Below, one piece after another: positions 37,876 to 40,095 of a stretch of DNA of 64,000 bases. Each line of letters starts with the position of its first letter. Position 1 is the stretch's first letter. Source of the stretch: Haladaptatus sp. R4 (GTDB lineage: Archaea; Halobacteriota; Halobacteria; Halobacteriales; Haladaptataceae). The stretch covers positions 186,001 through 250,000 of the forward strand of contig NZ_LWHG01000021.1 of NCBI RefSeq assembly GCF_001625445.1. Direction: 5' to 3'. The position numbers and the translations under genes were made by a program. The notes under the pieces are model-generated. The model was not told the DNA's origin, did not search any database, and saw only the letters and a program-made list of their open reading frames with translations.

Positions 37876-37966
37876 CGAGGACTCCGTTCACGACGGGGAT
37901 GACCCTATTGTATCCAACGGCTGAGGTATGAAAAAGGACTTAGGGGGTCGGAGTGACGGTCAAACC

Positions 37967-38941
37967 ATGAAAGCCGTCGTCCTCGCCGGTGGATATGCGA
38001 CACGTCTGTGGCCGATTACGAAACAGCGACCGAAGATGTTTCTGCCGATCGGTGAAACAACGGTCATCGACCGCATCTTCGCCGACCTCGAAGCCGACGA
38101 GCGTGTCGACACCGTCTACGTGAGCACGAACGAACGATTCGCCGACGACTTCCGCGAGCACCTCGCGGAGAGCGAATTCGAAAAGCCTCAGCTGAGCGTC
38201 GAAGACACGTCCGAGGAGGACGAGAAGTTCGGCGTCGTCGGCGCCCTCGCCCAACTCGTCGAGCGCGAGGAGGTGGACGACGACCTCGTCGTCATCGCCG
38301 GAGACAACCTCATCAGCTTCGACGTCGGCGACTTCGTGAACTTCTTCGAGAACAAGGGAGAATCCTGCCTCGCCGCCTACGACGTCGGCAGCAAGGAACT
38401 CGCGAAAGCCTACGGGTTGGTCGAACTCGACGGCGACCGCGTCGTGGACTTTCAGGAGAAACCGGAAGACCCCCACTCCACGCTGGTCTCCATCGCCTGC
38501 TATGCGTTCACCGCCGAAACCCTCCCGCTTCTCGAACAGTACCTCACCGACGGGAACAACCCCGACGAACCCGGCTGGTTCCTCCAATGGTTGCAGTCGC
38601 GCAACCCCGTTTACGCCTACACCTTCGAGGAAGCGTGGTTCGACATCGGAACCCCCGAAAGCTACCTCGAAGCCGTCGCGTGGTTCCTCGACGGGGAATC
38701 CTACGTCGCCGACAGCGCCACCCTCGACAACGCCGACATCGGCCACAACGTCCACGTGATGGACGGCGCGGAACTGACCGATGCTAACCTCGAAAACGCC
38801 ATCATCTTCCCCGATGCAACGATTCAGGGGTGTGACGTGCGTGACACCATCATAGACGAAGGCACTTACGTCGAGAACATGGACCTGGCTGGCGCACTCA
38901 TCGGTGCACACACCCAGATCACGAATCAGCGGGACGAGTAA
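37967..38941 (+). CDS. Sugar-1-phosphate nucleotidyltransferase
   Basis: 324 residues. The activation motif AVVLAGGYATRLWPITKQRPK (residues 3-23) is that of glucose-1-phosphate thymidylyl- or uridylyltransferases, followed by metal Asp in VVIAGDNLISFD and substrate-contact VDFQEKPEDPH. The C-terminal 80 residues have a left-handed beta-helix-like hexapeptide pattern (ADSATLDNADIGHNVHVMDGAELTDANLENAI). It makes a nucleotide sugar for surface glycans, perhaps for the AglJ-like pathway. The ATG at 37967 gives MKAVVLAGGY; an ATG at 37928 is possible. The gene is followed by the duplicated dph6 tail and hairpin modules. Confidence 0.9.
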   Translation: MKAVVLAGGYATRLWPITKQRPKMFLPIGETTVIDRIFADLEADERVDTVYVSTNERFADDFREHLAESEFEKPQLSVEDTSEEDEKFGVVGALAQLVEREEVDDDLVVIAGDNLISFDVGDFVNFFENKGESCLAAYDVGSKELAKAYGLVELDGDRVVDFQEKPEDPHSTLVSIACYAFTAETLPLLEQYLTDGNNPDEPGWFLQWLQSRNPVYAYTFEEAWFDIGTPESYLEAVAWFLDGESYVADSATLDNADIGHNVHVMDGAELTDANLENAIIFPDATIQGCDVRDTIIDEGTYVENMDLAGALIGAHTQITNQRDE

Positions 38942-39154
38942 ACGCACCTTTCGTTCCCACCTTTTTTCTTCGTCGGGTACCGCGAGAGCCGAAGGCTCTC
39001 GCGTACCACTCCTCGAAAAAATCTGGACCAAAAAAGAGCTCTCGCTCACTTCGTTCGCTCGCGGAACAGTTGCTTACCGCGACTCCGCCCTGCAACCGCC
39101 GCTCGCACTGGTACTGCAAAAGCCCATACCCGCCAACCGCACGGCAAACCGCGA
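38942..39154. repeat. Hairpin/A-tract intergenic module, copy A
   Basis: Starts directly after the nucleotidyltransferase stop. Order on the plus strand: CGCACC and a T-run, a ten-pair hairpin with GAA loop (38976-39007, with a further four-pair outer stem), the A-tract word AAAAAATCTGGACCAAAAAA (39016-39035), then CGCTCACTTCGTTCGCTCGCGG (shorter words inside 39041-39064) and about 90 unrelated bases. Copies B (39281-39387) and C (57174-57235) share the order. Confidence 0.7.
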
Positions 39155-39277
39155 TTACTCGCCCAACTCTGCGTCCGTAATCCGCAACCGTCCGCGGTCC
39201 CCGTCCCACTCGGTTTCGTACTCCAGTTCGATAGGGCGGTCCATGTGCGGCGCATCCGTCACGAGGGTCTCGAACTC
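39155..39277 (-). pseudogene. Duplicated 3' end of dph6 (remnant)
   Basis: 123 bases that repeat the last 41 codons of the dph6 gene (39388-39510). About 77 bases at the upstream end are identical; the remainder has diverged, giving EWDGDRGRLRITDAELGE against EWDGSRGRLHITDAGLDE, each closed by its own stop codon. The two copies lie 233 bases apart with hairpin module B between them. It has no start codon and cannot make protein alone. Confidence 0.9.
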
Positions 39278-39280
39278 ACG

Positions 39281-39387
39281 CACGCACCTTTTTTCCGCTC
39301 GGGTGTCCTCACGCTTTCAGCGTTGCGGGCACCGCTCGTGCAAAAAATCTGCACCAAAAAATGCCGCTCACTTCGTTCGCGGGGAAA
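39281..39387. repeat. Hairpin/A-tract intergenic module, copy B
   Basis: Lies between the true dph6 stop and the duplicated tail. It has the same order as copy A: CGCACCTTTTTTCCGCTCGG, an imperfect stem region around 39303-39341, AAAAAATCTGCACCAAAAAA (39342-39361), then CGCTCACTTCGTTCGCGG. The core A-tract word differs from copy A by one base. On the minus strand it reads as a T-rich double tract after the dph6 stop and may end that transcript. Confidence 0.7.
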
Positions 39388-40095
39388 CTACTCATCGAGG
39401 CCAGCATCCGTAATATGCAGTCTACCACGACTGCCGTCCCACTCGGTTTCGTACTCCAGTTCGATAGGGCGGTCCATGTGCGGCGCATCCGTCACGAGGG
39501 TCTCGAACTCTCCACCCTCGCCGAGAATGTGGACGCCGTACTCCTCGTTGAGTTCCTCCAACTCGTCCAGCGCGTCGGCGTCGAGCGTTCGGCCGAGCCA
39601 CGACTCGTCCAAGCCGTAGGCCGCGACTTGAACGATTTTGATCTCGAAACCGGCGTCGAGCATGGCGTCCGCGAGTTCGCGGGGGTCCTGCTGCCAGAGG
39701 GGAGCGAACAGGTCGATACCGAGGTCGTCACAGAGGTCCTGAATCCGGTGCGTCTGGAACTCGCTTTCGACCGCACCCGCCGTCACGCCCGCGAGGTCAA
39801 GGTCGAGGTCGCGGAGCGCGTCCTCCATGATTTCGGTTTCCATGTCGCCCTGTTCGCCCGCGTCCTCGACCGATTTGGCGTCGAAGTCACCCTCGACGTT
39901 CACGAGCGGAATGCCGATGCTTTCGGCGGCGAGCGCCGTGAGTTCCGTCGCCGGAACGTGGTACATGTACGAGTCGCCTTTCGGGTGAACGGTGAGCAGT
40001 CGCTCGACGTTCAGGCCCGCTTCGAGCGCACGGTAGAGCGCCCACGAGGAGTCCTTGCCGCCGGAGAAGAGGCTGACCCACGCCTGCTGATTCAT
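39388..40095 (-). CDS. dph6: Diphthine--ammonia ligase
   Basis: 235 residues. ATP pyrophosphatase that amidates diphthine to diphthamide on elongation factor 2. The PP-loop SGGKDSSWALY is at residues 10-20. The family stretches GDFDAKSVEDAGE, LWQQDPRELADAMLDAGFE and GEGGEFETLVTDAP (near 190) are intact. Length and start (MNQQAWVSLFSGGKDS) are normal for the archaeal family. Its last 41 codons are duplicated downstream at 39155-39277. Confidence 0.93.
   Translation of the reverse strand: MNQQAWVSLFSGGKDSSWALYRALEAGLNVERLLTVHPKGDSYMYHVPATELTALAAESIGIPLVNVEGDFDAKSVEDAGEQGDMETEIMEDALRDLDLDLAGVTAGAVESEFQTHRIQDLCDDLGIDLFAPLWQQDPRELADAMLDAGFEIKIVQVAAYGLDESWLGRTLDADALDELEELNEEYGVHILGEGGEFETLVTDAPHMDRPIELEYETEWDGSRGRLHITDAGLDE

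Follow-up and report, generated by a model that had tools for sequence, protein, structure and literature searches.

Doubled dph6 gene ends around a dispersed palindromic module in Haladaptatus sp. R4 and other haloarchaea

In Haladaptatus sp. R4, the last codons of dph6, the gene for diphthine--ammonia ligase, are repeated just downstream of the gene with a palindromic module in between, which raises the question of how one gene came to have two ends and which of them is the original. The locus was analysed in a window of 64,000 nucleotides (contig NZ_LWHG01000021.1, positions 186,001 to 250,000), and its features are listed in Table 1. The dph6 product matches Pfam family Diphthami_syn_2 (PF01902; E 7e-59). 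As an earlier note on this DNA had stated, the last 123 bp of the gene (minus strand, stop at 39388) are present again at 39155-39277, forming a direct repeat (39156-39277 and 39389-39510) with a spacing of 233 and 84% identity across 122 nt. By exact comparison, the gene-upstream part of the two tails, up to the residues WDG, is identical at 77/77 positions, whereas the part adjoining the stop agrees at 26/46 and differs at 20/46 sites; these diverged ends are hereafter E1 (functional gene) and E2 (downstream copy). The silent and coding changes noticed earlier are both real: most are synonymous and four alter an amino acid (SRGRLHITDAGLDE vs DRGRLRITDAELGE). The stop codon is TAG in the gene and TAA in the copy. 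The suggestion that the identical block ends at a module edge held for one side only: the second tail starts precisely at the edge of module B (39277/39278), but the switch from identical to diverged sequence falls at 39433/39434, within dph6 and not at any module edge. Across 816 kb of the contig, the dph6 pair is the only repeat of more than 100 bp and more than 80% identity overlapping an ORF end within 2.5 kb. A chance local repeat was rejected, since local tail duplication was found at only 2 of 1199 ordinary ORF ends, one of them that of dph6 itself.

Table 1. Features of the dph6 locus in the window, with two comparable loci elsewhere in the same genome
Feature	Position	Strand	Description	Basis
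dph6 (diphthine--ammonia ligase)	39388..40095	-	functional gene, 235 aa	ORF + Pfam
Core of tail copy 1 (T1)	39434..39510	-	77 bp shared without mismatch with tail copy 2; native-like	
E1	39388..39433	-	last 46 bp of functional dph6; outlier, probably imported	
Spacer with module B (S_B)	39278..39387	-	110 bp; foreign S element	
S_B palindrome	39284..39361	-	T6-GGTGCAGA-T6-GC...hairpin...GG-A6-GGTGC	
Tail copy 2 (T2)	39155..39277	-	77-bp core + native end E2, own stop, outside gene	
Native dph6 3' UTR	39036..39154	-	displaced along with tail copy 2; aligns with L144 dph6 3' UTR	
Module A (S_A)	38957..39035	-	native S element between convergent dph6 and nucleotidyltransferase genes	
Convergent neighbour, sugar nucleotidyltransferase-type	37928..38941	+	337 aa; name read from sequence	ORF
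Locus L341 (tail, module, tail copy)	G000:C11:183541-183598		window's own genome, outside window; behind ileS in the order given	
Locus L356 (tail, module, tail copy)	G000:C11:227271-227322		window's own genome, outside window; behind etfA-like gene in the order given	

Native and foreign parts were distinguished by comparison with the nearest single-tail relatives, L144 (genome G003) and L145 (genome G004), which display the dph6 site without an insert; the convergent neighbour is also present at relatives' loci. The gene body is 88% identical to that of these relatives and the 77-bp core matches them at 67-70/77 positions; core and gene body stand at 87-91%. The downstream end E2 matches L145 at 39/46 and L144 at 34/46 positions, against 30/46 and 27/46 for E1, and the GC content of E1 is 0.52 vs 0.63 for the gene. 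What follows the second tail aligns with the 3' UTR of L144 and then with the L144 module; with this module, which occupies the same place, module A shares 88% identity. Module B is 69% identical to the orthologous L144 module and 65% identical to module A, for which reason it was rejected as a plain copy of the latter; it is 84-87% identical to elements of the same family at other loci in genomes G229, G002 and G004.

Because E2, the 3' UTR and module A match the single-tail relatives better than do E1 and module B, the downstream tail with module A represents the original gene end, with E1 and module B probably inserted ahead of it. The two ends differ mostly at synonymous sites, stop codon included, and both therefore evolved as parts of working genes, an outcome that conversion of a live gene against a decaying duplicate would not produce. 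The recent conversion of one stretch that the earlier note offered is unneeded at a locus where E2, the 3' UTR and module A are native and E1 and module B are the outliers, and gene conversion alone does not account for these differences. A search for the donor of E1 returned none, the best matches reaching only 32-33/46, and among the matches listed from other genomes in a DNA search with E1 plus S_B only the module was found and no E1.

The module, designated S, is a palindromic sequence of about 50-110 bp with the layout T5 GGTCCAG T5, hairpin, A5 GGTGG, its ends being CCANNTTTTT...AAAAANNTGG. It behaves as a discrete repeat, with sharp edges in differing genomic contexts; its right end hardly varies (the A-run and GGTGG, then 0-14 nt) and its left end varies in position relative to the first tail (T1). 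The outer triplets are complementary in 121 of 125 family members and fall into four types (CCA/TGG 106, GCA/TGC 7, CGA/TCG 4, GTA/TAC 4), compared with a mean of 92 and a maximum of 100 in shuffles that ignore kinship; the pair GCA/TGC of module B is compensatory to the usual CCA/TGG. Base pairs next to the outer triplets covary as well, kinship again being ignored, and the lengths of the T-run and the A-run are correlated at 0.91. Module A and the module of L140 fold better than shuffled sequences (z -3.0 and -2.5), and module B folds no better (z -0.65). In genome-wide counts, which rest on pattern searches with S loci picked by exact motif, the pattern TTTTGGTCCAGMTTTT gave 0-24 matches per genome across 28 genomes and its reversed control gave 0. 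A stricter full-module pattern was present in 15 of the 43 class genomes of the draw and in 0 of 204 other Halobacteriota genomes, and S is confined to haloarchaea within the sample. No Rfam family matched S at E up to 1.

Genes followed by S have T-runs behind them on both strands. Most copies of S in the genome of the window and in two relatives lie between convergent genes, and their right end is often 0-20 bp away from the stop of the neighbouring gene; in the window, 15 bp separate the stop of the convergent neighbour from module A. This arrangement fits a two-way terminator, and S may act, or be tolerated, as a putative two-way transcription terminator at gene 3' ends, a proposal that shares the even odds of the whole reading set out below. 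Terminators of Haloferax volcanii comprise T stretches and hairpins, according to the consulted portion of PMC7237163. Like the T-run terminators described there, S combines a hairpin with T-runs that immediately follow genes on both strands, in many cases where two genes converge. Unlike them, the S elements form a defined palindromic family in which T-runs pair with A-runs and the outer triplets covary, and a tail copy often follows them; nothing resembling S was found in that portion of PMC7237163. No description of S, or of its layout with two tails, was found in the open-access full-text literature as represented by the excerpts retrieved. At L357, L364 and L366, S adjoins apparent tRNA 3' ends in convergent orientation, as read from sequence.

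The same succession of gene tail, S and tail copy (T-S-T) recurs well beyond dph6. Calling tail copies by detection thresholds, we found one behind S at 24 of 41 non-dph6 S loci in six other genomes, with lengths of 29-70 bp, and at 16 of 31 modules in a wider sample, which overlaps partly with the former, takes in two dph6 loci and scores each member of an array separately. Repeats at other genes span 27-77 bp. The targets include ileS, argF, hisF, pheT, gatA, ilvD and purH-like, thiolase, SDR and glutaredoxin genes, some of these names having been assigned from translated C-termini, and the same target genes recur in different families; the window's own genome has the layout behind ileS and an etfA-like gene. 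Modules resembling S_B lie at the phosphotransacetylase (pta) genes of the sister species G002 and G004, flanked by local tail copies that are 102/102 identical in G004 and show synonymous differences in G002; the glutaredoxin copies are 55/55 identical. A dph6-specific function of the second tail was rejected, the layout behind many other genes being identical. In genome G078 (C1:2160431-2160703), three tandem modules 109 bp apart stand behind a thiolase gene with tail copies between them. At L264 (G401:C1, about 1019036), S apparently lies between two copies of a gene 5' end, MSDSTDDGPEYDVDFREN.. and MTEDPEYDVDFREN.., and S may thus also affect gene starts.

Among haloarchaea, a tail search detected an adjacent partial extra dph6 tail in 33 of 391 genomes (34 loci with G026), all within about 0.6 kb of the gene and spread over four families. 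Together with the many other target genes, the T-S-T around the same module at 33 other dph6 loci lends strong support to the module-associated rearrangement that the earlier note had considered, and equally to its view that the locus illustrates how such modules may spread. The copied tail mostly starts either at GAGAC (ETLV) or upstream of it by a few codons, and the repeat is mostly about 100-125 bp long. The spacers between tails measure 49-488 bp, carry S and mostly end in the A-run GGTGGTTCT or in GGTAC; G170 (L121) was omitted from this analysis owing to assembly N within its tail array. The note had envisaged that relatives with evenly diverged tails would make conversion unnecessary, and the outcome is mixed, as near-identical pairs (L132, identical throughout at 110/110), evenly diverged pairs and mosaic pairs in which the core is identical and the end has diverged (L138, L140, L128) all occur.

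Both gain and loss are visible among these loci. Three tails are present in L122 and L135, and L044 bears successive insertions in the order tail, S, tail, S remnant and end remnant, for which the module-less dph6 sites L038 and L040 serve as comparators; L055 looks like a deletion derivative. Comparisons with sister species, in which E2 and E1 matched the sister at 36 and 31 (L111), 43 and 39 (L119), 47 and 44 (L120) and 45 and 36 (L134) of 48 positions, mostly place the native end downstream, as in the window, with some ties. The polarity is reversed in L138, where the native-like end sits on the functional tail. L222, used as a sister site in the comparisons, bears an end remnant and hence is no virgin site, so the histories of dph6 3' ends are layered. 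Within genus g75, the sister species represented by L134 and L138 seem to have exchanged the two dph6 ends between functional and displaced positions.

Taken as a whole, S sits directly behind conserved genes, followed by a duplicate of their last 30-120 bases, and it probably moves, carrying or duplicating gene ends. The reading we prefer, to which we assign a probability of about 0.5, is that a foreign gene end was inserted together with S, a dispersed terminator-like element, and that homologous recombination spreads the T-S-T arrangement. In the window, homologous recombination into the conserved native core at the 3' end of dph6 would have brought in a foreign segment made up of E1 and S_B. 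The gene would have kept an intact C-terminus, now encoded by E1. The native end would have been displaced downstream, along with its 3' UTR and module A, and would now follow a second copy of the 77-bp core. Since T2 shares homology with the gene, any T-S-T allele brings its own right homology arm, and we infer that it could spread by this recombination route between species, even those with differing flanks. Homology-facilitated illegitimate recombination is similar in that a homologous arm and a non-homologous junction could join a foreign end and S to the start of a tail; it differs in that the right end of S is nearly constant rather than random. This near-constant right end, together with the variable start of T2, argues against random breakage. 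The first junction of tail and S may have arisen by long target duplication, by microhomology-mediated template switching or otherwise, all of these routes being unproven. Microhomology at this junction is weak: comparing the end of S with the gene sequence directly ahead of the tail gave a local score of 4.26, against 3.84 in shuffles (one of 300 attained 4.26), and ungapped identity was not enriched. The opposite polarity of L138, the end remnant at the sister site L222, the missing donor of E1 and the failure to identify an enzyme that would move S count against the preferred reading.

The main competing account, close to the view taken in the earlier note, is that a resident unit of tail and module was tandemly duplicated and then diverged, with partial gene conversion of the core; we hold it to be a tentative minority option overall, and the data on the window already speak against it there. 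It gains some plausibility from variable left ends, truncated second modules and tandem arrays: near-identical arrays of tails and modules occur in G078 (three modules), G080, G084, G085, L254 and L266, and at L374, L362 and L347 the second tail leads into a second S that is cut short at its T-runs or within the hairpin. Haloarchaea are also described as highly recombinogenic in the available part of PMC3988388, and such high recombination would favour tandem duplication with conversion. Yet S_B and S_A, at just 65% identity, are not copies of each other; E1 and E2 differ at close to half of their sites, mostly synonymously, with E2 native-like; and most dph6 loci of the Natrialbaceae type (family f8) lack a second S behind T2. 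It is rather unlikely that S is instead a transposable, MITE-like element generating target duplications that are unusually long and differ in size, from 27 to about 125 bp, with later recombination producing the mosaics of T1 and T2. The sharp edges of S in different contexts, the invariably local origin of the tail, the inverted repeats at its outer ends (all four triplet types) and perfect long repeats (pta of G004, dph6 of L132, glutaredoxin) would suit such an element, and S resembles both MITEs and REP-type palindromic repeats in being short, non-coding, palindromic, dispersed and intergenic. MITEs, however, have short target duplications of fixed length, whereas S is flanked by 27-77 bp of local gene end at other genes and mostly about 100-125 bp at dph6, in copies that are often diverged and at recurrent conserved genes; moreover, its left end relative to T1 is not constant, covarying outer pairs suit a structure better than fixed transposase sites, and no transposase or autonomous relative was noticed.

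Prophage e14 and phage 21 at E. coli icd are kilobases long, carry an integrase and use one target gene; integration of this type classically substitutes an element-borne gene end for the native one, which is displaced. The window resembles this outcome, as the insert brings a substitute 3' end with mainly synonymous differences (E1 being the outlier) and the native end stays downstream with its flank; successive accretion at L044 likewise agrees with a site-specific integrative element, reduced to a scar or a minimal version, that uses the 3' ends of dph6 and other genes as attachment sites. Nevertheless, we consider this improbable. The insert here is about 230 bp and contains no gene, no integrase gene or element body lies in the 110-bp spacer or in the spacers measured at the other loci, and the same module stands behind many different genes. 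No far dph6 tail copies were found in 391 genomes, and no attP copy in 50,697 phage records, plasmids or IMG/VR viral contigs, plasmids having only full dph6 genes; a large integrative element was rejected on these grounds. Least credible, and very improbable in our view, is that T2 is a reverse-transcribed copy of a terminated mRNA 3' end set behind S. The 102/102 copy at pta of G004 leaves room for an RNA template or a long target duplication, as it stops at a T-run, where an archaeal transcript would end (a T stretch is a known Haloferax terminator in the consulted portion of PMC7237163), and start points of T2 vary across 27-77 bp. Synonymous divergence of T1 and T2 with a native E2 would be unexpected from such a template, and the second tail of L347 ends inside a hairpin.

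It is also conceivable, though doubtful, that S represents a previously undescribed haloarchaeal class of non-coding mobile element, spread by a dedicated process other than ordinary recombination that copies 30-120 bp of the target end each time; if so, S would land in conserved genes without breaking them. In S, a dispersed and structurally constrained intergenic module is tied to recurrent, datable rearrangement at essential genes across an archaeal class. If the preferred reading is right, haloarchaeal gene 3' ends, comprising C-terminal codons, stops and terminators, are regularly swapped between species as small cassettes, which would affect the annotation of orphan tails, gene-end phylogenies and ideas on terminator spread. 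Several Natrialbaceae plasmids (hits H1-H9) carry a complete second dph6-like gene. A further local 3'-end duplication, of 40 bp and 90% identity, lies about 1.4 kb from dph6 at G322:C1, about 20409.
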